A stretch of DNA of 26,988 bases from a virus. Positions 1,778 to 24,739 of this stretch are shown piece after piece. Position numbers and translations under genes: made by a program. Every line of letters begins with the position of its first letter. The stretch's first letter is position 1. The notes below the pieces were generated by a model, which was not told the DNA's origin, made no database searches, and saw only the letters and a list, made by a program, of their open reading frames with translations. The stretch lies in IMG/VR virus record IMGVR_UViG_3300025131_000342, positions 1 to 26,988 of that record; one strand, 5' to 3'.

Positions 1778-1820
1778 ATGAATAAATTCGAAGAACACTT
1801 AATAAATGTATTACTGGAAG
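1778..1820 (+). repeat. direct repeat copy 1 (capsid-targeting tag)
   Basis: These 43 bases, from the ATG through the tag codons, are identical to 2481-2523. Other tags diverge at DNA level but keep the peptide: 2170-2211, 3298-3339, 3751-3795, 3978-4019, 4639-4680, 5076-5117 and 6247-6285. The upstream string TAAGGATTATTATGAA also recurs (3290 and 3969 regions; a GAGGATTATTATGAA version at 1768). The repeating unit is therefore ribosome site plus tag. Confidence 0.85.
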
Positions 1821-2173
1821 GAGACTCTACAGGATGGAGTGTAGGTCAAACTATGGAGAGGGTTGGTAGAACTGTCGCACGCTCTGAACAAAGAGGAGAT
1901 AAAAAAGCAGTAGCCAAACAAAAACCTCAGGCCAAAAGAATTTTAAGAAAACTCAGTCAGAGAAGGCATCCAGAGGACTTCCAAATGGGGCCTCGTACCG
2001 AGATTCCCGCTGGAGAAAAAAACAAAGGCAATAAAAATGACCCCCCTGATAGAGTAGAGGTTGGAATGATTGATACTCCTGCGTGGAGAACAGCTAGAGG
2101 AAAAAGAAGATACTATCAAGGAAAAGAGGATGTTGGAGGAGGTCCTGGTGGATGGCCTGAAACTGTCAAATGA
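1778..2173 (+). CDS. internal-head-protein-like, tagged basic protein 1
   Basis: A 131-residue protein with the N-terminal tag MNKFEEHLINVLLE (1-14) followed by G. It matches the layout of T4 capsid targeting sequences (M-K-T-Y-Q-E-F-I-A-E then A) and the prohead protease rule [L/I]-x-E before a small residue. The rest is low-complexity and Lys/Arg-rich (for example QRGDKKAVAKQKPQAKRIL) with a Gly-Pro-rich end; no enzyme motif is visible. Expected fate by analogy with T4 IPI-IPIII: bound to the prohead core, cut after E14, kept in the head with DNA and injected. The ATG at 1778 is chosen because the tag begins there and GAGGAT lies upstream; the frame is open further upstream. It overlaps the next gene by 4 bases (ATGA). 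Confidence 0.75.
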   Translation: MNKFEEHLINVLLEGDSTGWSVGQTMERVGRTVARSEQRGDKKAVAKQKPQAKRILRKLSQRRHPEDFQMGPRTEIPAGEKNKGNKNDPPDRVEVGMIDTPAWRTARGKRRYYQGKEDVGGGPGGWPETVK

Positions 2174-2481
2174 AAAATTTCGAAGAGTATTTAATTGATG
2201 TATTATTAGAGGCAAAGAGTACAAGAGCGCAATACAGACAAAACGAGAACAAAGTCGGTGACTTCTTTCGAAGACTTAGTAGAAATTTTAAACAGAAACG
2301 AGGGGAATGGACTGATGCTAGAAGGGAGAGAGCAAGTAATAGAGCAGTAAGACAAGCACATAAAAAGGCAAAGCAAGATAAAATAGATGCTATGATGGCT
2401 CAAACAGATACTAAGCATCCAGAAGTTATACAGAATGATCTTGAAAGAGCCGAGTTTAATAACTCTATGAGAGATAAATAA
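2170..2481 (+). CDS. internal-head-protein-like, tagged basic protein 2
   Basis: A 103-residue protein. Tag MKNFEEYLIDVLLE (1-14) followed by A, an ideal T4-type cleavage context. The remainder is strongly basic and predicted helical (FFRRLSRNFKQKRGEW, then RRERASNRAVRQAHKKAKQDK), consistent with DNA binding inside the head. Its start overlaps the stop of protein 1 (ATGA) and its stop overlaps the start of protein 3 (TAATG), so the three are translationally coupled. No catalytic motif. The specific role after injection is unknown; T4 IPI, a known member of this functional class, blocks a host restriction enzyme. Confidence 0.75.
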   Translation: MKNFEEYLIDVLLEAKSTRAQYRQNENKVGDFFRRLSRNFKQKRGEWTDARRERASNRAVRQAHKKAKQDKIDAMMAQTDTKHPEVIQNDLERAEFNNSMRDK

Positions 2482-3278
2482 TGAATAAATTCGAAGAACA
2501 CTTAATAAATGTATTACTGGAAGAAGAGAATAAGAAGAAATCTAAGCCTCGTTCAGATTATCCAGCACGCCCGCGAGGCCCGCGAGATTTTCGCAATTCC
2601 CCCAGGCTAAAGCTTTCTAATTTAATTGATCTCCCCCTACCGAAGGCTCGTCCTGTAGGTAAAAACCCAGACAATTTACAGCAGGGAAATACAAATAAAT
2701 CCCAGAATAATCCAGGACATATAAAAAGAATGTATGATCATATAAAAAGAATGGCTGCAAAAGAAACATTGGATATAAAGCTGGGTAGAGATGTAAATGA
2801 AGGAAGTAGGGGTGTAAATAGAATAATCAGAAGAGTAAAAGCAGGACATTTAGATAGGAACGCCCCAACTGTAAAGGAAAAGGAAAAAGATCAGTTAGCA
2901 AGGTATAAGGACAAAGAGGACCCAGATAAGAGGGAGAAGAATGTAAAAGGAACAGTAGCAGCACTTGATAAAGGAATGGAAGATACTAAGAGACTCCCTA
3001 ATGTTCTTAGAACTACGCATGAATTCGCTAAATCCTCAGACCCAGAAGCTGAAAAGAAACATGCTTCAGCCACTAGAACACCTCATGCAGTTAGAGCAGT
3101 TAAGAGGGCTCTCAGTAGAGGAATAGGAGCATATGTACCTGAGAGAGATCGGAAAGGTACAGTAACTACCTTAGCCAAACAAAGAAAAGAAGACTCTACT
3201 TTGGATAAGGATATATCTAATAGGGCTAAAGCTTATAGAAGAATAAGGAGCAGAAGGGTTCCCCCTTCAATGAATTAA
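2481..3278 (+). CDS. internal-head-protein-like, tagged basic protein 3
   Basis: A 265-residue protein, the largest of the set. Its tag MNKFEEHLINVLLE (1-14) is identical in DNA to that of protein 1. The residue after the cut would be E rather than A, S or G, so cleavage may be slower or shifted. The body is disordered-looking and basic, with internally similar stretches (HIKRMYDHIKRM; KGTVAALDKG and KGTVTTLAKQ), hinting at internal duplication. It ends in RRIRSRRVPPSMN. Packaging as DNA-bound cargo is inferred from tag, charge and position; no domain is recognised. Confidence 0.72.
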   Translation: MNKFEEHLINVLLEEENKKKSKPRSDYPARPRGPRDFRNSPRLKLSNLIDLPLPKARPVGKNPDNLQQGNTNKSQNNPGHIKRMYDHIKRMAAKETLDIKLGRDVNEGSRGVNRIIRRVKAGHLDRNAPTVKEKEKDQLARYKDKEDPDKREKNVKGTVAALDKGMEDTKRLPNVLRTTHEFAKSSDPEAEKKHASATRTPHAVRAVKRALSRGIGAYVPERDRKGTVTTLAKQRKEDSTLDKDISNRAKAYRRIRSRRVPPSMN

Positions 3279-3297
3279 ATGCAGTATAAGGATTATT

Positions 3298-3969
3298 ATG
3301 AATAACTTCGAAGAATATTTAATTGACGCATTAACAGAAGGTAGTCGTGGACTCCAAAGACTTAGAAGAAAAGGGGATGTTGCGGGTGCTGAAAGAAAAG
3401 CAAAAGAAGGACAAACAAGAAAGTTAGCTACTGAATTTGAAGGTCATGCTGCTGGTAGTAAAGTGGATCCTCTGGGGGGTTCGTCTGCGCCTAAGAAAAG
3501 TTCTATAGAGCATATTAGGGGTCATAAAGCAAGGGGCATTAGAGCAGAGGATAGTCCTAGCTTTATGAAATACAAACGGGACATCCCAGGAGAAAGACCA
3601 GCCTCTGAGAAGAATAGAGGAACTAGAGCAGCAAGAAGAGCTATCTCTAGAGCCTCTGGAGAATCAGAAGCTAAAAAAAGAAAGATAGGACATGCAGCTA
3701 AGAAAGCTGAAAAAGATAGAAGAGAGAGAGCCCAATTTGGAACTTCTACGAATGAGAGCTTCGAACAATATTTAATTAATGTATTACTGCGAGAAGGTCA
3801 CATCACAACAGAATCGCAAGCCCAACCAGATATTAAAACTTTAGCTAAGACCTGTGCAAAGAAGATTAAAGCAAAAGGCTGTACGAAAGCTCTTCAAAAT
3901 CCTAAAGCTAAGAAAGACAGGATAGCTCTTATAAGAGCTAAAGGAAAACTTCCCCCTGCTCCATTATAA
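3298..3969 (+). CDS. tagged basic protein 4 with a second, internal tag
   Basis: A 223-residue protein starting MNNFEEYLIDALTE (1-14) then G. A second tag-like peptide, NESFEQYLINVLLRE, lies at residues 152-166, followed by G; its L-R-E before G again fits the [L/I]-x-E rule. There is no in-frame Met at the second tag (the nearby ATG at 3752 is out of frame), so this looks like two cargo genes fused into one frame. The first cargo is very basic (RGTRAARRAISRASGES, AKKRKIGHAAKKAEKDRRER). The second, about 57 residues, is also Lys-rich and has two Cys. If both sites are cut, one chain yields two packaged proteins. Preceded by TATAAGGATTATT. Confidence 0.75.
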   Translation: MNNFEEYLIDALTEGSRGLQRLRRKGDVAGAERKAKEGQTRKLATEFEGHAAGSKVDPLGGSSAPKKSSIEHIRGHKARGIRAEDSPSFMKYKRDIPGERPASEKNRGTRAARRAISRASGESEAKKRKIGHAAKKAEKDRRERAQFGTSTNESFEQYLINVLLREGHITTESQAQPDIKTLAKTCAKKIKAKGCTKALQNPKAKKDRIALIRAKGKLPPAPL

Positions 3970-3977
3970 GGATTATT

Positions 3978-4580
3978 ATGAACAATTTCGAACAATATTT
4001 AATTAATGTATTACTAGAAGCTCAGACACCAGAGCGACATGGCCACATTATAGCGAATAAAGCATTAAATAAATTTGACGACGAGCGTGATGCTTTTGAG
4101 AAATCAGGAGGTAAAGTTAAGCCCACCAAGGTTCCAGGTTTCTGGGATCCTAACTCTGAGAACTTTATGAAGGCTTCTGAATATGATAAAGCGATGGATA
4201 AGGAAGGAGAAAAAGGACCAACTGCCGAGAAATTAAGAAAAAAGAGATTAACCACTCAACTTAAACTTAAGAATAAGTTGAGGAAGGAATTTGTTGCTTC
4301 AAGAGAAAATGATGCTCATGATGAGGCTCTTCGCCTTGCAAGAAACGAGAAGGAGGAGACTCCTCTGGTCAGACGGCAGAAGCGAGCCAAACATAAAGCG
4401 GCGCAAAAGAGAATAGATAGGATGCATTCCACACAAGACAAACGAGGAGGGGACAGACCTGGATGGAGGGGAGAAGATGAAACAGACGCTGCTCAAAGGC
4501 GAGGTCAACCCTACCCTGGAGGAACGCACTCTGGTGGCATTGCCCCCTGGCGAAATTGGGGAAATAAAAAAGAAAAATAG
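3978..4580 (+). CDS. internal-head-protein-like, tagged basic protein 5
   Basis: A 200-residue protein. Tag MNNFEQYLINVLLE (1-14) then A, a canonical site. The body mixes acidic and basic helices (EKLRKKRLTTQLKLKNKL; VRRQKRAKHKAAQKRIDRM) and ends in a Gly/Trp/Pro-rich tail (GGDRPGWRGEDE, APWRNWGNKKEK). A short aromatic segment (VPGFWDPNSENF, near residues 52-63) is a possible folded patch. Preceded by the same TATAAGGATTATT ribosome-site block as protein 4. Function after packaging unknown. Confidence 0.74.
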   Translation: MNNFEQYLINVLLEAQTPERHGHIIANKALNKFDDERDAFEKSGGKVKPTKVPGFWDPNSENFMKASEYDKAMDKEGEKGPTAEKLRKKRLTTQLKLKNKLRKEFVASRENDAHDEALRLARNEKEETPLVRRQKRAKHKAAQKRIDRMHSTQDKRGGDRPGWRGEDETDAAQRRGQPYPGGTHSGGIAPWRNWGNKKEK

Positions 4581-4638
4581 TTATGAACATAGAGGCAAAA
4601 ATATAACTGAAAGATTCTATATACAAGAGAGGAATATT

Positions 4639-5079
4639 ATGAATAACTTTGAAGAACACTTAATAAATGTATTACTTGAGACAGCATATGAGGAAGGTGA
4701 AACTGTAGACGAACCTGAGGTTCTGACAAGGTATAAAAAAGCTAGAGACCAACGCCGCAAAAAAGCGGCTGCTGGCCCTCGCAAACCTTATGAAAGACCT
4801 TCCAAGCAAGCTCTCCAAGCGCGAGATCGTCGGGTCAACACCCCAAACCCAGGGTTAAACCCTGGGGAGAAACAAGGATTTTCCCACAAACAAAACAGGA
4901 GAGACCGTCGAGGATCTGAGGGCACATATCATGGAGAAGGGGGAGTGTACCCCTCTTACCAACCTGAGGCTGGAGTTCGGGGTGGAGGACCACAACAACC
5001 AACAATGCAGTCTAAACATATAAAGAGATCCCCTAAAACTAGGCATAAGGGCCAGAAATGGATACAAACACAACCATGA
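4639..5079 (+). CDS. internal-head-protein-like, tagged basic protein 6
   Basis: A 146-residue protein. The ATG at 4639 was chosen because the tag MNNFEEHLINVLLE starts there after AGAGGAATATT; the open frame extends further upstream to 4477 but overlaps protein 5. Residue 15 is T. The body has a basic start (YKKARDQRRKKAAAG), a Pro/Gly/Asn segment (NTPNPGLNPGEK) whose DNA is an inverted repeat (4848-4866), and a Gln/His/Lys-rich tail. It overlaps protein 7 by ATGA. No known domain; inferred packaged cargo. Confidence 0.72.
   Translation: MNNFEEHLINVLLETAYEEGETVDEPEVLTRYKKARDQRRKKAAAGPRKPYERPSKQALQARDRRVNTPNPGLNPGEKQGFSHKQNRRDRRGSEGTYHGEGGVYPSYQPEAGVRGGGPQQPTMQSKHIKRSPKTRHKGQKWIQTQP
4848..4866 (+). 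repeat. perfect inverted repeat inside tagged gene 6
   Basis: CCCAGGGT, a TAA loop, then ACCCTGGG: an 8-bp GC-rich stem with a 3-base loop in an otherwise AT-rich array. It sits inside a reading frame and lacks a following T-run, so it is not a standard terminator. It may affect mRNA stability or simply encode the repeated Asn-Pro-Gly. Confidence 0.5.
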
Positions 5080-5282
5080 ATAACTTTGAACAATATCTCA
5101 CAACTTTTTTAGTTGAAACTATGGGAGTTATGCCAACCCCTGAAGATAAGAAGAAGGGAGAGGAGGCTAGAAAGAGTAAGCAAACACATCAAGAGCCTAA
5201 ACCTGCCCCTAAACCTAGAAATCCAAAACAAGAAGCAATGGATCGGGCAAAGAAAAAGAAAAAAGATAGAGGTTGGCGATAA
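5076..5282 (+). CDS. short tagged basic protein 7
   Basis: A 68-residue protein. Tag variant MNNFEQYLTTFLVE (1-14) followed by T. The 54 residues after the cut contain 18 Lys/Arg by hand count against 8 Asp/Glu and end in the run AKKKKKDRGWR, a histone-tail-like composition suited to DNA condensation. The start is fixed by the tag and by the ATGA overlap with gene 6. The F-L-V-E ending of the tag matches that of the 6997 protein, showing the tag tolerates variation at its end. Confidence 0.7.
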   Translation: MNNFEQYLTTFLVETMGVMPTPEDKKKGEEARKSKQTHQEPKPAPKPRNPKQEAMDRAKKKKKDRGWR

Positions 5283-5284
5283 TA

Positions 5285-5542
5285 ATGTCAAAGACTGGTG
5301 GAAGATTAAAAAAAGTTGATATGGTTCCTACAGATAAATTTAAAAAGAAGGAAGGACATGTTGAGAAACGCTATAAAGCAATTCTAAAAAATCCAAATAG
5401 TTCAAAAGCAGATATTAGAGATGCAAAAAATTATTTTGAAAGAAGCGGCGAAGCTCCTCACGATCCAACAGTAGTTGAAGATGGTATTACCCCTTTCGAG
5501 GGGTTTCTCGCAAATAGAATAATGGAAATATTTACTAAATAG
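5285..5542 (+). CDS. basic protein with tag-like peptide at its C-terminus
   Basis: An 85-residue protein starting MSKTGGRLKKVD at the ATG at 5285; the frame is open upstream from a TTG, but the ATG two bases after the previous stop is preferred. It lacks an N-terminal tag. Near its end it carries FEGFLANRIME (residues 71-81) followed by IFTK. This aligns position by position with FEEHLINVLLE of the N-terminal tags (F, E, aromatic or His, L, N, two aliphatics, E). The middle is Lys-rich with a helical KADIRDAKNYFERSG segment. Either the core-binding peptide works from the C-terminus here, or the gene came from a rearrangement that moved the tag. Confidence 0.6.
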   Translation: MSKTGGRLKKVDMVPTDKFKKKEGHVEKRYKAILKNPNSSKADIRDAKNYFERSGEAPHDPTVVEDGITPFEGFLANRIMEIFTK

Positions 5543-5544
5543 TC

Positions 5545-5913
5545 ATGGCACAATCACCGATGATAGATGGAAAAGGTTATATTGATGTAACTTCTGCTTT
5601 AAAGCTGAAAGAAGCTGAAGGCAGAGTTGAAGTAGATAAATTACAAGCTGAATCGGATGCAAGATTTAGAGAATTACTCATAAAAGAAAGCGCGAAGGAA
5701 ACTGCTTCTAAGCACCTCGCTAAGTTTGCAGGGCTGTACTTATTAATTCTCGTCCTCGCCTTCATTGGTAGTATTAAATTCATACCAGAATCCAATGTTG
5801 CGGTGGTTGCGGGACTCATCACATTGGTAGTGACGAATCTGAGTACGATTTTAAAGGGAATCGTGGAGAACGGACAAGGGAAAGAAGAGGAGATAAAGGG
5901 AGATAAGAAATGA
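5545..5913 (+). CDS. small two-helix membrane protein (holin-like candidate)
   Basis: A 122-residue protein with a charged, helical N-terminal half (about 20-60, heptad-like), two hydrophobic segments at about 62-80 (GLYLLILVLAFIGSIKF) and 85-105 (VAVVAGLITLVVTNLSTIL), and a Glu/Lys-rich tail. Two transmembrane segments and a charged C-terminus are shared with class II holins, but holins are too diverse for a firm call. The ATG lacks a strong ribosome site. It is coupled by ATGA to another small membrane protein (5910-6092). It interrupts the tagged-protein array, so a role in the virion or injection is another option. Confidence 0.55.
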   Translation: MAQSPMIDGKGYIDVTSALKLKEAEGRVEVDKLQAESDARFRELLIKESAKETASKHLAKFAGLYLLILVLAFIGSIKFIPESNVAVVAGLITLVVTNLSTILKGIVENGQGKEEEIKGDKK

Positions 5914-6092
5914 ATCCAATATGGGCATTATTTTTCAAGGACAGGTTTAGAACACCTTTTTCAGTTTATAGAATGAGTTTAGCAGAACTTGTAGTTTTGC
6001 TTGGGCTTGTTGCTGGTGCTGGAATCGGAGTTGCTAAAGGAATTGACTGGATCCTTGATATAGAAGGTGTCTCTTCTACTGTTGATGAATAG
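5910..6092 (+). CDS. small single-pass membrane protein
   Basis: A 60-residue protein with one hydrophobic segment at about residues 24-43 (LAELVVLLGLVAGAGIGVAK), basic residues before it and an acidic C-terminus. Its ATG overlaps the TGA of the two-helix membrane protein, and a GGGAG lies upstream in that gene, so the two are produced together. The Gly/Ala-rich helix would pack closely with others. It may be a partner such as an antiholin, which is inference from pairing only. Confidence 0.5.
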   Translation: MNPIWALFFKDRFRTPFSVYRMSLAELVVLLGLVAGAGIGVAKGIDWILDIEGVSSTVDE

Positions 6093-6210
6093 AAAAAATA
6101 AGGGTTTTATAAATCGAAATCCAAAATATTGGATAAAATTCAGGAAAATTAGAAAGAGTGTTCTAAGTTTTTTTAGAAAAGAGTCCAAAATAAAAAATCG
6201 CAAGTCCTAA
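6085..6210 (+). CDS. possible 41-residue basic ORF
   Basis: An ATG at 6085 inside the end of the preceding gene opens a frame of 41 codons rich in Lys, Arg and Ile/Phe (MNRKNKGFINRNPKYW then IKFRKIRKSVLSFFRK). The composition matches the basic cargo proteins but there is no tag and no clear ribosome site; GAAGGTG lies about 18 bases upstream. It fills most of the gap before the next promoter. It could be a real toxin-like or DNA-binding peptide, or a chance frame in AT-rich DNA, where AAA/AGA codons are common. Confidence 0.3.
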   Translation: MNRKNKGFINRNPKYWIKFRKIRKSVLSFFRKESKIKNRKS

Positions 6211-6227
6211 CTTAGGTTTCTACGCTA

Positions 6228-6234
6228 TATAATA
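6228..6234 (+). promoter_or_regulatory. TATAATA late-promoter-like box before tagged gene 8
   Basis: TATAATA, then 12 bases containing AGAGG, then the ATG at 6247. It starts the second block of tagged genes after the membrane-protein pair. Same leadered class as at 1760. Confidence 0.5.
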
Positions 6235-6246
6235 CAGAGGCACACT

Positions 6247-6627
6247 ATGAATTTTCAAGATCGACTAATAAATGTTTTACTAGAAGCAAAGTATATGGGA
6301 AATTTTAAAGATAGGGAAAACAGAAGGGCGGCTGCTTATAATAGGGCTGCTGCTGCACAGGGGCCTAGAGCAATAGCTAGGGCAAAACAGGGGCACGGAC
6401 CACTTACCACTCGATGGGCTGAAACTGAGATTGCACAAGCTTATGCTAAAGGAAAGGAGAAGATTCCTAGCAGAGGGTCACAATCTAACGCTCCTCAAGC
6501 TGATGTTAAAGCAGCCAAGAAAAGAAGAGAAAAAATCCATCCTCAAATAAATCTTGGACCTAAAAGAGCAGGGAAGTACGATGCTAGTATATTTGGATTA
6601 GGAAAAAAAAGAAAGTGGGAGAAGTAA
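6247..6627 (+). CDS. internal-head-protein-like, tagged basic protein 8
   Basis: A 126-residue protein. Shortened tag MNFQDRLINVLLE (1-13) followed by A, an ideal [L/I]-x-E/A site. It keeps the LINVLLE core although its first half differs (FQDR for NFEEY), which marks the core as the constrained part. The body is Ala/Arg/Lys-rich (ENRRAAAYNRAAAAQGPRAI) and ends in a basic run (LGKKRKWEK). Has its own promoter-like box and AGAGG ribosome site. Inferred packaged DNA-binding cargo. Confidence 0.72.
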   Translation: MNFQDRLINVLLEAKYMGNFKDRENRRAAAYNRAAAAQGPRAIARAKQGHGPLTTRWAETEIAQAYAKGKEKIPSRGSQSNAPQADVKAAKKRREKIHPQINLGPKRAGKYDASIFGLGKKRKWEK

Positions 6628-6630
6628 ATA

Positions 6631-6987
6631 GTGGATTACACAGACCGTATTAAAGAACACATTCTAGAAACTAGAAAGATTAAACAATCCCCAGTAAGTA
6701 GGAAGCAAGAAATAGCTTTACAGCATATGAAATTACTTAAAATGGGTGAAAAAGATTCTGAAGAAGCTAAAGAACTTAGAAGACAATATAGAAGACTAGA
6801 AGGGGAAAAGATCGTAGAGAAAAAAGATTGGATGCAGGGAGCCGTAAAGCGTCCAGGTAGATGCACTCCAATGCCTAATCCTGATTGTCCTGTGGGAAGT
6901 CCCCAATACAATCTTGGAAAAAGATTTAAAAAAGCAGCCAGAAAGAAAAAACGCAAAGGTGGTACTGGCTGGCAAGGAAAAGTTTAG
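6631..6987 (+). CDS. tag-like basic protein 9 (GTG start)
   Basis: A 118-residue protein begun by GTG three bases after the previous stop, with GAGAAG upstream. Its N-terminus MDYTDRIKEHILE (1-13, then T) keeps the spacing of charged and aliphatic residues and ends I-L-E, so it is a divergent tag. The body is helical and charged, followed by a Cys/Pro segment (RCTPMPNPDCPVGSPQY) and a strongly basic end (RFKKAARKKKRKGG). The two Cys could form a small loop. Grouped with the cargo family by position, N-terminus and charge, with less certainty than proteins 1-8. Confidence 0.62.
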   Translation: MDYTDRIKEHILETRKIKQSPVSRKQEIALQHMKLLKMGEKDSEEAKELRRQYRRLEGEKIVEKKDWMQGAVKRPGRCTPMPNPDCPVGSPQYNLGKRFKKAARKKKRKGGTGWQGKV

Positions 6988-16671: not shown

Positions 16672-17421
16672 ATGGAAAACGAAACAACATTGAGTAAGCA
16701 GCCTGATGTAGCGGAAGCTGTTGATAACATATTAGAAAATTTACCTTCTGAACTAGAAGAAGTTATAGATTTACCTTCTAGATCAAAATTTTATAGTTTG
16801 AAAGATCCAGCAGAAGGGATTAAAATTAGACCTATGAATTTTTCAGACGAAAAGGCAATCGTTCAGGCTGCTACTAAAGACTCTATTAATATTCTTTTGA
16901 CAAGATGCGTGTCAAATATTGATGTTACTCAGCTTCTTCAATTTGATAAACTTTATTTACTAATGAAGATTAGAGAAGTATCTTTTGGAAGCAATTATAG
17001 TGTAAATCTTATATGTGATGCCTGTAATAATAAAAATGTAGTTACTTACGATATAGGAAGTTTTAGAATAAAACTTATTCCAGAAGACTTAGAAGATCCT
17101 AGAGATCTTTTTCTTGAAGCTATTGGAAAGACCGCAAAGGTCCGTTTCCCCAGAGTGCAAGACGAAGTTTATATTACAAATAGTGCAAAAGTAATGGATA
17201 ATTTATGGAGATTTGTTGTGTCTATTGATGGACATGATAATAAAGCTGTTATTAGTAAAGTTATTCAAAAATTACCTTCAAAAGATGTACATCTTTTAAT
17301 GAATGATATTTTTGGTTCTGATTATGGTTTGGATACAAAAGGCCAAGTAAAGTGTGATAGCTGTGGTCATATCCAAATTTCGGAGTTGCCTATCGGCACC
17401 GATTTTTTTACGCTGAGTTAG
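16672..17421 (+). CDS. gp26/gp51-family baseplate hub / tail assembly chaperone, zero-frame product
   Basis: A 249-residue protein of the T4 gp26/gp51 type. After an acidic N-terminus, IDLPSRSKFYSL and GIKIRPMNFSDEKAI (about 33-63) match the usual start of this family. Two Cys pairs, C115-x2-C118 and C228-x2-C231, would form a zinc site. The ATG follows TATAAGGATATTATT. In T4 these proteins are needed for hub assembly but absent from the finished virion, and they are regarded as counterparts of lambda gpG-type tape measure chaperones. The tape measure gene follows downstream (22517). Near its end the frame crosses a seven-T slippery site and can continue in the -1 frame (see 17409-17603). Confidence 0.8.
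   Translation: MENETTLSKQPDVAEAVDNILENLPSELEEVIDLPSRSKFYSLKDPAEGIKIRPMNFSDEKAIVQAATKDSINILLTRCVSNIDVTQLLQFDKLYLLMKIREVSFGSNYSVNLICDACNNKNVVTYDIGSFRIKLIPEDLEDPRDLFLEAIGKTAKVRFPRVQDEVYITNSAKVMDNLWRFVVSIDGHDNKAVISKVIQKLPSKDVHLLMNDIFGSDYGLDTKGQVKCDSCGHIQISELPIGTDFFTLS
17403..17409 (+). promoter_or_regulatory. T-TTT-TTT slippery site for -1 frameshifting
   Basis: Seven T residues read in zero frame as GAT TTT TTT ACG. This is the X-XXY-YYZ layout in which both tRNAs keep full pairing after a -1 slip. The zero-frame stop follows three codons later at 17419-17421. No strong downstream hairpin was found by eye. Confidence 0.65.
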
Positions 17422-17603
17422 ATCAAACACTTGATCTAGATGAATTGCTTTTAGAAGCCTATATACTTGTGCATAGGGTAGGGTTTACCTATAAAGATGT
17501 AAAAGAGCTTACCAGAACTGAAAGAACAGCGTTCTTAAAATTATTTAAAGAAGAATTAAAAAGAGAAGAAAATGAAATTAAACGGGCACAATCTAGTAGA
17601 TAG
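17409..17603 (+). CDS. -1 frame extension of the tail chaperone (G-T-like fusion)
   Basis: After a -1 slip at 17403-17409 the frame continues from TAC at 17409 for 64 codons to the TAG at 17601-17603, giving a fusion of 310 residues. There is no ATG in this frame. It encodes YAELDQTLDLDELLLEAYIL, then VHRVGFTYKDVKELTRTERT and AFLKLFKEELKREENEIKRA. The hydrophobic helix, the GFTYKDVKELTRTER turn and a charged E/K-rich end are features of T parts in G-T tail chaperone pairs, where a minor frameshift product binds the tape measure protein. Without it, this 150-base stretch would be an empty gap between closely packed genes. The last 32 bases overlap the next gene. Confidence 0.68.
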   Translation, partial: YAELDQTLDLDELLLEAYILVHRVGFTYKDVKELTRTERTAFLKLFKEELKREENEIKRAQSSR

Positions 17604-18516
17604 GGGAAATAGACCAACCGTTCTTCAGCGAGTGGGATTGCAAACTTTTTTTGTTAATGACGGAGTATACATTGATCCATATCAAGTAAGCTCTGTAATG
17701 ATATTTAAAAAGTCTGATCTTAACGCTAATAATATCGCAACTACCATAGGGTCTGATGGGTTAGTATTATCAACAGCTAGTCCGTACATGAGATTTGCTC
17801 CGTCAGGGGATATTACCGATGTAGATTTTGATGCTTTCGATCCTGAGGAGTATACTGCAACCAACGATAACTTTGCAAGTAGTGTTTATCGAACGGGTGT
17901 AGGGACTTATGTTTGTGTTCTAGATGAACTTATTAGTTTAAGTGGAGATTGGCAAGGATCAGCTTTATCTAATACAGCATCCTCTGTTGATGATTTTGTA
18001 GATATTTGGACAGTAAAAATAGCAGAAGGTAGTAGCTTTCAAACTCTTATAAATAATTTCCATTTATATGGAGATACTGTTTTTACTTTAACAGAGCCTC
18101 TTCTACTACAAACTAGGACTCACCTAGCAAATAGGCACATAAAAATAGGATCTAAAATTAATCTTAAATTTACAAACGATATTACAGTAGAAAATGGAAA
18201 TATAGATCAGGGTGTTATTAATATATTTAAAGAGTCTGCTATAACAAACGCTCAAGTAGAAATTGTAAAATTAAATGAAGATGTGAATTTACCGTCAAGG
18301 GTAACTGTTTCTGCTTTTGATAATGCAACAGTAAGTGGACTTGTCAGTATTACAACTGACAATACTGTAGTATTTCCTTTAGATACTACCTCTATTCAAA
18401 CAGTTCTTTCTGCTAGTGGTGGTGGATCAGTAACAGGAACATATACTGCTCAGATTAAATTTAATTTAATTGATGAATTAATTCTTAGTCCTCTTTTCCA
18501 TTTTATAGTAAAATAA
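17572..18516 (+). CDS. probable virion structural protein, 314 aa
   Basis: Soluble beta-rich protein. Conserved-looking opening KLNGHNLVDRGNRPTVLQRV, then V-Y-I-D-P-Y near 34-39 and TGVGTYVCVLDE (about 110-121). The C-terminal half is a long series of short strands (SITTDNTVVFPLDT, GTYTAQIKFNL) ending LFHFIVK. Many T4-like environmental phages carry an uncharacterised structural protein of this appearance in the tail/baseplate region, but I cannot name the family. The ATG lies inside the frameshift extension and is preceded by AGAAGAAA, so translation may depend on ribosomes finishing the chaperone gene. A baseplate or tail role is inferred from position. Confidence 0.58.
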   Translation: MKLNGHNLVDRGNRPTVLQRVGLQTFFVNDGVYIDPYQVSSVMIFKKSDLNANNIATTIGSDGLVLSTASPYMRFAPSGDITDVDFDAFDPEEYTATNDNFASSVYRTGVGTYVCVLDELISLSGDWQGSALSNTASSVDDFVDIWTVKIAEGSSFQTLINNFHLYGDTVFTLTEPLLLQTRTHLANRHIKIGSKINLKFTNDITVENGNIDQGVINIFKESAITNAQVEIVKLNEDVNLPSRVTVSAFDNATVSGLVSITTDNTVVFPLDTTSIQTVLSASGGGSVTGTYTAQIKFNLIDELILSPLFHFIVK

Positions 18517-21984: not shown

Positions 21985-22533
21985 ATGACTCAATTTTCAC
22001 CAACAATTCAAGAATTTTTAAAAAGTTATTCCCCAGAACGGGCACCGTCTGAGGTTATATTCTCTGAACAACAAGAGATTAGTACTATAATTGCTAGAAT
22101 ACCCAGACTAACTAGCAGATTTAGACCTGGAGAGATAATAATATTTAATTATACTCCTGGTGGTCAGATGAGGAGTACTATGGGCAGGTTTGCTGGTGGT
22201 AGAGAACGAGTTATTTTAGTTGTTGCCTCAAAGTACGAACCTCAAGGAATTAGGAGGACCAGAACTACTCATGCTGTTATCGTAGCTTGCTTCAGACTTG
22301 AGTATTCCTCTAAGGCAGTTATTGATATTGTTCTTAAAACCCTATATAAAAATAGGAAGAAGCTAAAAAATATATCTCAAAAAGTAAAGAAGGGATTATT
22401 TGCAGTATTAGGATCAGGAGTTTATAGAACTTATAGATTAGATAGAATGGAGTTTTGTTGGAATATAAATCTAACAGAAGCACAAAAAGCTATTTCAGAG
22501 AGAGAGGAAACCGAAAATGCCCCAGAAGAATGA
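21985..22533 (+). CDS. tail/baseplate-associated protein of unknown family, 182 aa
   Basis: A helical start (SPTIQEFLKSYSPERAPSEV) is followed by a small beta domain (FRPGEIIIFNYTPGG, then RERVILVVASKYEPQG) and a charged helix (YKNRKKLKNISQKVKKG), ending with YRTYRLDRMEFCWNINLTE and an acidic tail. The P-G-E-I-I-x-F-x-Y ... V-I-L-V pattern resembles a domain I have seen in uncharacterised proteins of large myoviruses, but no name can be given. Position just before the tape measure equals that of T4 gene 28, and the length is close (177 in T4). I see no residue-level similarity to gp28, so this is positional only. It overlaps the tape measure start by 17 bases. Confidence 0.5.
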   Translation: MTQFSPTIQEFLKSYSPERAPSEVIFSEQQEISTIIARIPRLTSRFRPGEIIIFNYTPGGQMRSTMGRFAGGRERVILVVASKYEPQGIRRTRTTHAVIVACFRLEYSSKAVIDIVLKTLYKNRKKLKNISQKVKKGLFAVLGSGVYRTYRLDRMEFCWNINLTEAQKAISEREETENAPEE

Positions 22534-24739
22534 TGAACAAGCTGTAGCAGCAAGTTTGGCCTTAACAGAAGCTGTTTCTAATTTAAATAAAGCTTTAGCT
22601 CAAGGTAATCCTGCTTATGGTAGGCAAGCAAAGGCATTAGCAGCAAATAGTAAAGCTTTACAAGGTCGTTCTGCTTCTGAGAAAACTATAGGGGGCGTGA
22701 TGGGGAGCCTCCATGATTCCATAGGCACCCTGGGGGGGAAATTTTCAACCGATATTAAAAATTTTGCTAGTCCTATTAATTTATTATCAACTGCTTTAAG
22801 AGAAGGATTGCAGACAGCAATGGAGACCCAAAACTCAGCCCTTCAACTGGGGATGGAGGTTGATGAAGTAATTGGTAAATTCCCAGGTGATATGAGTACT
22901 GCTATGGGTGGTTTTACTGCTAACCTTAAAACTACCATGCAGCAAACTGATATTGGTATGAAAGATTTAGGAAAGCATACCTCTATAGCTGCGGCTCGTA
23001 CTGAGGCTTTAGGAGGAAATACTACTGGATTAATTAGAGCGCAGAGAAGGATGGAGACGCATTTAGGTATGGATGCTGCTGCTGTTGATAAGTCCTCTAA
23101 AAATATGGTTCTTCTCAGTCAGCAGTATGGGATATCTACTGATCGTTTGGTAGCTGGATTGGATGCACTTGCTAGTAATTTTGGAACCTTTGCTGCATTA
23201 GGTATTGGAGAGGATATGACTAACGCAGTAACAGAGTTTACTGCCCAAGCGGGTGCTGGAAATGAAAAACTAGTAGCGCAATTTACAAAATCTTTAACCG
23301 CAGTTGGAGGTGCTGCTGTTTCTCAAGCTGTGCTTGGAGGAGTTCAAGATATACAGCATGAAGTAATGACAGGAAATGTTAATGCCAATATGTTGCGTGA
23401 AGCGGCGATGAAACAAGGTTCTCGATTACAAGGAATTGTTTCGGAAATGCAATCAAATGGGGTAAACATGACGGTAGCTATGGATCAGCTTGGTAGGCTA
23501 TACGGAGAAGGTGCCGTTGCTGCTTTACAGTTGTTTAAGCAACAAGAAGCCATGACTGATGAGCAAAGGAAAGAAGTAGAAATATCACAAGAATGGAATA
23601 AAACATTAACTCTACTTAAAGATGAGATTATGACTCCTATTAAAGTTTCTCTCTCAGAACATATACCTGTACTTGTTGATCAAGTTAAAAAGTTTGTTCC
23701 TATCCTTCAAGGAATTCTTAAAGGTGTAATGATATCCGCTGCTGCGGTTGCTATGAAGAGGGGTCTTGGAGGAATGTTAGCAGGAGCAACCACAAAAGGT
23801 GGTCCTGATCTTATGCGTATGGCTGGTGGTTTAGGGTTGGCTGGTGTGGGTCTTGGAGGAGCTTCTATGGGGCTAGGAGCCGATATAGGAGGAGCAGGAG
23901 CTATGGGTGCGGCTGGTTTAGCTGCTGGGTTACTCCCCATGATTACTACTTTATTTAGTAAAGATAAAGGTATATTTGGAGCCTTTAAGTATGGTTTCGG
24001 AAAGGATAAAGGAGGAGGGGGAGGTATTCTCGGCATGGGAGGAGGTAAGCTAGGAACTCAAGGAAACCCCATGTATGTTATTCAAACTGAAGACCTCTTA
24101 GGTGGAGTATCGAAGATGATTCCAGACGGAGGAATGGGTAAGATGTTTAAAAAGATACCTGGAGTAGGCAAACTTGGTCAATTTTTAGGAAAGGGATCTG
24201 GATTAGATAGGGCTCTTTCTAAAGGAGCATCTGGATTATTAAAAGGAACTAGTAAAGCTATAGGTCCAGGAGTAAAGCGAATATTTGGTAGGGGCGCAGC
24301 TAAAACATTCGGGAGTTTTATGGGGAAAAGATTAGCTGGAGTAGCCGCAGCTAATATGGTTCCAGTAGCAGGACAAATATTAACTGTTGGAGTTCTTGCA
24401 TGGGAAGGGTTACAATATTGGAAGAAAAGACAAGAACAACGAGCTTATCAACGAGATGAAGCTATTAGAGATGATTTACATAAAAGACAGGAAGAAAGAA
24501 TACAGGCTGAAATTGGTGCTTTTAATGAAGGTATGAATAAGTCTACTTCTTATTTGCGAATTACAAATGAAGAACTTAGGTCAGCAATGAAAGATCAACT
24601 GTATGGAGGTTCTATGAAAGCTTCAATAGATAAACTGGCTGGTGCTATTGAGGCTGGTAATAAAACTAATGAAAGTATTGAAGTAAATACAGCAGAGATG
24701 GCAGCAAATAACAGTATAGAAACAGCAGAAGGGGGATGA
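22517..24739 (+). CDS. 29: tape measure protein (gp29-like)
   Basis: A 740-residue protein that would set tail length and occupy the tube lumen before injection. The N-terminal two-fifths is long Ala/Gln/Thr-rich helix (AAARTEALGGNTTGLIRAQR-type repeats). The middle (about 400-490) is Gly/Ala/Met-rich and hydrophobic (MISAAAVAMKRGLGGMLAGA; GLAGVGLGGASMGLGADIGG), the usual membrane-active part. The C-terminal part is basic then helical (YWKKRQEQRAYQRDEAIRDD). T4 gp29 is 590 residues; by the usual rule of about 1.5 Angstrom per residue, a somewhat longer tail than T4 is expected. It follows the chaperone module in the same order as other tailed phages. Confidence 0.85.
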   Translation: MPQKNDEQAVAASLALTEAVSNLNKALAQGNPAYGRQAKALAANSKALQGRSASEKTIGGVMGSLHDSIGTLGGKFSTDIKNFASPINLLSTALREGLQTAMETQNSALQLGMEVDEVIGKFPGDMSTAMGGFTANLKTTMQQTDIGMKDLGKHTSIAAARTEALGGNTTGLIRAQRRMETHLGMDAAAVDKSSKNMVLLSQQYGISTDRLVAGLDALASNFGTFAALGIGEDMTNAVTEFTAQAGAGNEKLVAQFTKSLTAVGGAAVSQAVLGGVQDIQHEVMTGNVNANMLREAAMKQGSRLQGIVSEMQSNGVNMTVAMDQLGRLYGEGAVAALQLFKQQEAMTDEQRKEVEISQEWNKTLTLLKDEIMTPIKVSLSEHIPVLVDQVKKFVPILQGILKGVMISAAAVAMKRGLGGMLAGATTKGGPDLMRMAGGLGLAGVGLGGASMGLGADIGGAGAMGAAGLAAGLLPMITTLFSKDKGIFGAFKYGFGKDKGGGGGILGMGGGKLGTQGNPMYVIQTEDLLGGVSKMIPDGGMGKMFKKIPGVGKLGQFLGKGSGLDRALSKGASGLLKGTSKAIGPGVKRIFGRGAAKTFGSFMGKRLAGVAAANMVPVAGQILTVGVLAWEGLQYWKKRQEQRAYQRDEAIRDDLHKRQEERIQAEIGAFNEGMNKSTSYLRITNEELRSAMKDQLYGGSMKASIDKLAGAIEAGNKTNESIEVNTAEMAANNSIETAEGG

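Follow-up and report, generated by a model that had tools for sequence, protein, structure and literature searches.

The question raised by this locus is whether one T4-type tail gene of an uncultured phage makes two proteins by -1 frameshifting, and how such an arrangement would relate to T4 itself, in which the corresponding functions lie in two genes, 26 and 51. The window (the whole stretch of 26,988 bases analysed here, a fragment of a viral genome) matches T4-type terminase, portal and UvsW-like helicase families and contains a gene whose last codons pass over a run of seven Ts. This gene is very probably a tail assembly chaperone gene of the T4 type (PF12322) from which two proteins are made, a reading that rests on the observed register of the slippery site, the open frame beyond the stop, conservation, homology and copy number.

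A gp26/gp51-family gene and its -1 frame

PF12322 is the family of both T4 gp26 and T4 gp51. The window gene matches it at 70.7 bits against a curated cut-off of 24.5, and the family is matched by all 24 members of A11. The window holds a single PF12322 copy; since it is only a fragment of 27 kb, a second could lie elsewhere in the genome.

The 0-frame gene ends GAT (17401) TTT TTT ACG CTG AGT TAG (17419-17421), so that T TTT TTT stands in the register for a -1 shift three sense codons upstream of the stop. Beyond the stop the -1 frame stays open: translated from 17409 it reads YAELDQTLDLDELLLEAYILVHRVGFTYKDVKELTRTERTAFLKLFKEELKREENEIKRAQSSR, with its own stop at 17601-17603, 32 nt inside the following ORF (starting at 17572), and there is no ATG between 17409 and 17603. 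The encoded segment is rich in E and K and is predicted to form three helices (pLDDT 81). A first-pass annotation had described the T-TTT-TTT heptamer in correct register three codons before the stop, the 64-codon frame without ATG that ends just inside the next gene, and the helical, E/K-rich character of its product; all of these hold. Among 29 window genes examined, this is the only one in which an in-register heptamer is followed by a -1 frame running at least 20 codons past the stop, so the pattern exceeds chance. The extension is also recognised by phrog_634 (E 0.0018, and 9.6e-5 in another search).

Table 1. Coordinates of the frameshift locus, of other window features and of comparable sites in relatives (window positions unless a locus is named)
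Feature	Position	Strand	Basis or remark
0-frame gene, short product (TAC-N, G-like), 249 aa	16672..17421	+	PF12322 E 1.9e-19; phrog_150 E 3.7e-20
Slippery heptamer T TTT TTT, 0-frame register	17403..17409	+	sequence; invariant in L002, L003, L248
-1 extension, putative C-terminal domain of long product (TAC-NC, G-T-like), 64 codons + stop	17409..17603	+	reading frame; phrog_634
Hairpin, candidate frameshift stimulator, 8-9 bp stem (17418-17426 with 17431-17439)	17418..17439	+	RNA folding
0-frame stop TAG, within hairpin 5' arm	17419..17421	+	sequence, RNA folding
Next ORF; its ATG overlaps the end of the -1 frame	17572..18516	+	no family above curated cut-off
Candidate tape measure protein, presumed client	22517..24739	+	length and composition only
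ORF starts with shared N-terminus	1778, 2170, 2481, 3298, 3978, 4639, 5076, 6247	+	
Syn9 "gp51"	L035 3249-3392		within -1 extension
KVP40 "gp51"	L231 2322-2489		within -1 extension
phiN3 short gene	L232 2214-2375		within -1 extension
Vibrio phage D504, -1 frame	L237 2058-2258		open 58 codons past stop
LR756511, TAATG overlap	L007 ~3768-3772		possible start of -1 extension

Elsewhere in the window (1778-6987), at least eight consecutive ORFs for basic or charged proteins, otherwise dissimilar, begin with a common N-terminus of the approximate form M(N/K)(N/K)FE(E/Q)(Y/H)LI(N/D)VLLE; PHROG searches returned no match for five of them. T4 internal head proteins have a common capsid-targeting leader that ends in a protease motif, and the shared N-terminus of the window ORFs resembles such a leader.

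Conservation in close and distant relatives

Close relatives, with 71-74% identity in the 0-frame protein and 77-82% in the -1 protein, occur in other metagenomes on the contigs L002, L003 and L248. All three retain GATTTTTTTAC and the open -1 frame, which is without an ATG in all four window-type sequences. Neither a single in-frame gene nor an ATG-started second gene, either of which the first-pass annotation had named as evidence against a frameshift, occurs in any close relative. Where the four proteins share an invariant residue, its codon is also identical at 22 of 29 positions around the site (from 20 codons before it to 20 after), compared with 39 of 110 in the gene body (Fisher P = 1.2e-4), an excess that points to additional selection on the nucleotide sequence. 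A broader alignment (A2) was too weakly conserved to be scanned. Searches of phages with the -1 segment alone (tblastn) and at the DNA level gave no match, and no relatives were found in bacterial genomes.

Farther out, the cyanophage Syn9 has a 0-frame protein only about 20% identical to that of the window and the same design, with a single PF12322 gene, a T-run heptamer and a homologous -1 domain; its site, T TTT TTC, lies one codon before the stop, whereas that of the window lies three before. A slippery site followed by an open -1 frame is nearly universal in the cyanophage- and jumbo-type loci surveyed, although the counts below do not represent independent events, the loci having been collected through sequence similarity and many being closely related. 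NNT TTT TTC stands exactly one codon before the 0-frame stop in 80/80 cyanophage-type loci, at the protein position occupied by T TTT TTT in the window. Their -1 frame continues for 58-67 codons past the stop (median 61.5, from the 78 loci in which it stays within the contig); for the other frame the median is 7. Within the bodies of the same genes Phe-Phe is written TTT TTC in only 1 of 96 instances.

In the jumbo-type loci the -1 frame is open in 80/80 and a slippery heptamer is present in 79/80 (T6C in 60, A AAT TTT in 15, T7 in three, T6A in one, none in one); L135 belongs to this type and is without a clear heptamer. The one-gene -1 layout recurs in PA5oct, BF, GAP32, XaC1, CBB, XbC2, RaK2, 121Q, Atu_ph07, Phosso and RAS14, in KVP40, phiAS5, phiN3, Astolliot and Ps15, and, with T TTT TTG, in RL38J1. 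The FF..L motif at the frame junction is conserved across groups.

In a branch related to Bacillus phage SP-15 (L196-L227, including SP-15, Listeria phage LIS04 and GXN1) the protein position of the extension is unchanged, but 29 of 32 assessable loci have it in the +1 frame, at TTT TTT C or CCC A sites, and three in the -1 frame; the SP-15 site reads TTT TTT CAC GCC CGA. The baseplate hub gene of SP-15 and LIS04 resembles the window gene in belonging to PF12322 and in its frameshift extension, whose C-terminal domain is similar, and differs in that the extension is open in +1.

Two loci invite separate comment. Vibrio phage D504 has no clear slippery heptamer before its open -1 frame, and another mechanism or reinitiation is possible there. 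In the 595-kb phage genome LR756511, a TAATG overlap at the possible start of the extension may record a change from frameshifting to reinitiation; frameshift assignment is ambiguous in LR756511 and in LR756508.

RNA structure and the nature of the predicted shift

In the window the hairpin begins 8 nt 3' of the slippery site, and it folds in all four window-type sequences. Seven of the eight pairs counted never vary among the four, so they offer no covariation support, and the z-score for the window alone is only -1.4. When folding energy was compared with that of shuffled sequences across the -1 groups, the strongest signal, with z-scores of -1.20 and -1.88, fell directly 3' of the site; most other segments scanned scored between -0.05 and -0.5. 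A conserved Shine-Dalgarno-like GGAG lies about 18 nt 5' of the slippery site, which seems too distant for a typical stimulator, and no such role is claimed for it.

The same two proteins would be obtained if the register changed during transcription rather than translation, as T runs can make RNA polymerase slip. As the source of both products from the seven-T run this is quite improbable: the sites of relatives are interrupted (TTTTTTC, AAATTTT), they keep the X XXY YYZ register typical of ribosomal slippage, and they are followed by stable RNA structure, a combination that fits ribosomal shifting.

Short gp51 genes in cyanophages and KVP40

Cyanophage gp51 was noted in a 2010 study as having only about 20% of the usual length (PMC3037559). 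The frameshift layout would account for this report. In Syn9, KVP40 and phiN3 the -1 extension of gp26 contains the whole of the short gene annotated as "baseplate hub assembly catalyst" (Table 1), the gp51 described in that study as missing about 200 N-terminal residues, and in Syn9 homology to phrog_634 starts upstream of both the gp26 stop and the annotated gp51 ATG. A match that begins before the gp26 stop implies that the 47 residues annotated as gp51 belong to a frameshift product.

These annotations also speak for the idea that the -1 ORF is a gene of its own, translated either from a separate start codon or by ribosomes that reinitiate once they have passed the 0-frame stop: short gp51 genes with internal ATGs were annotated in Syn9 and KVP40, and the TAATG of LR756511 could serve for reinitiation. 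The idea is nevertheless quite improbable, given the -1 frames of the window type that offer no ATG, the reach of the Syn9 homology across the stop, the conserved motif at the junction, and the T TTT TTC sites, for which reinitiation has no need. That the T run is instead a sequencing or assembly error, the true gene being one in-frame fusion like T4 gp51, draws on the error-proneness of homopolymers and the in-frame fusion of T4-like gp51, but is highly improbable, and the miscount feared in the first-pass annotation correspondingly unlikely, because the same seven Ts occur in four contigs from different samples, most relatives have T6C (many of them complete genomes of cultured phages), and the 0-frame stop follows one codon past the site in every cyanophage-type locus.

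T4 gp26 and gp51

The two T4 proteins appear to correspond to the two predicted products of the window gene. The PF12322 domain takes up the whole of T4 gp26 (208 aa); in gp51 (249 aa) it occupies residues 1-201 and is followed by a C-terminal extension, and that extension is covered by phrog_634, which also matches the -1 frames of the window and of L002. The shift position is also where T4-type gp26 mostly ends, with GLKEFF(E/K)(L/V)L, as the 0-frame product of the window ends at its FF site; gp51 has an extra C-terminal domain like the predicted long form, fused in frame. The difference is that T4 has two genes and no frameshift, and the window phage one gene and a probable -1 shift.

The window -1 domain gave no significant match when aligned directly with the gp51 C-terminus. 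It is tied to it through phrog_634 and through intermediate domains, in hhalign comparisons whose E-values are pairwise and not scaled to a database: the cyanophage -1 domain matches the gp51 C-terminus (94.6%, E 6.6e-8), and the window-type -1 domains match those of cyanophage and jumbo loci (E ~2e-4). The phage records searched have either one copy, with a frameshift candidate, or two genes in the T4 style: T4 and RB43 each have two PF12322 genes, 16 further records that gave a match have a single one apiece, and Mel-JY01 has no PF12322 match at threshold. In a tree of 66 sequences, in which RB43 gp26 is a long branch and the deep branches are uncertain, gp51 forms one clade (100/98) and gp26 joins it (97/73) among -1 frameshifters, with Ps15, KVP40 and phiAS5 nearest to the T4 pair. 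The simplest reading of these comparisons would be that a frameshifting gene was duplicated, one copy keeping the short form and the other fusing the extension.

The first-pass annotation had interpreted the locus as a gp26/51-type gene giving a pair like G and G-T. The comparative evidence, which is very strong, supports that interpretation in essence: gp26 appears as the domain alone and gp51 as the domain with an extension like that of the -1 frame, and the arrangement typical of G and G-T, an in-register slippery site near the 3' end with a conserved open frame past the stop, is found here.

Predicted structure and putative chaperone role

The AlphaFold2 model of the 0-frame protein (pLDDT 89.7) resembles T4-type baseplate hub proteins among viral structures, the best match being the baseplate hub subunit of SP-15 (E 3.4e-18). 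Neither it nor the -1 domain significantly matches any solved structure, those of known tail chaperones included, by profile or by fold; a fold relation to lambda-type chaperones is thus not established by the models. Two CxxC pairs in the 0-frame protein (C115/C118 and C228/C231) are invariant across nine diverse PF12322 proteins, which suggests a zinc site; Syn9 gp26 is without them.

A role in tail assembly is suggested by T4, whose gp26 and gp51 are classed as chaperones of hub assembly, gp51 being required yet absent from the particle (PMC3004832), by lambda gpG/gpGT (PMC5009743), and by gene position in SP-15 and LIS04, where the PF12322 gene sits between the tail tube gene and the tape measure gene, immediately upstream of the latter. 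The tail chaperones lambda gpG/gpGT and P2 E/E' use -1 shifts as well; the site and proteins of lambda differ from those of the window. The presumed tape measure gene of the window lies about 5 kb downstream of the PF12322 gene rather than beside it; its product matched nothing in family and PHROG searches, and its identity is suggested by length and composition.

That the shift occurs and at what rate, what the hairpin does and that the products act as chaperones are inferred from these features, in the following form. Most ribosomes would terminate at 17421 and release the 249-residue short form, equivalent to T4 gp26; a minority would slip back one nucleotide on T TTT TTT, probably assisted by the hairpin, and read on to 17603. 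Their product, the long form, would have about 310 residues and a helical C-terminal domain and would be equivalent to gp51; T4 encodes the two forms in two duplicated genes instead. If the pair works as lambda gpG/gpGT does, the tape measure protein would be coated by many short copies and few long ones, and the additional C-terminal domain would recruit tube subunits.

Relation to earlier work and wider meaning

The link between the T4 hub factors and general tail chaperones, also proposed in the first-pass annotation, is upheld here and appears to have been published already. As represented in papers that cite it, Vladimirov et al. 2022 (Virology 566:9) deals with short and long tail assembly chaperones of the gp26/gp51 type: PMC10885494 cites it for T4-like phages, some of which have a short gene and a longer fusion gene rather than a frameshift, and PMC12846349 cites it for polyT signals in T4-like TAC-N genes, itself describing another conserved -1 case. 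To the extent that these papers credit that study with the core idea, the kind of system is known and the window gene is a new member of it. Possible novelties are the uncultured clade of the window, the jumbo branch, the +1 branch and an account of why cyanophage gp51 looked "truncated"; the last three may already be contained in Vladimirov et al. 2022.

In a 2016 review T4 is listed as an exception to frameshifted tail chaperones (PMC5009743). The exception now looks confined to the T4 branch, since related phages frameshift and the two T4 genes have the appearance of a duplication that replaced the shift. Across cyanophages, marine vibriophages, jumbo phages and SP-15-like Bacillus phages, it is likely that frameshifting is ancestral to the whole PF12322 family, that -1 and +1 shifting have been exchanged at the same protein position, and that T4 lost the shift by duplication, with each copy fixing one product. 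Were this so, the "truncated" gp51 of cyanophages would be an artefact of annotation. Syn9 gp26 matches 684 phage records, many of which probably hold gene models in need of correction; the conserved sites could meanwhile be used in reporter tests.
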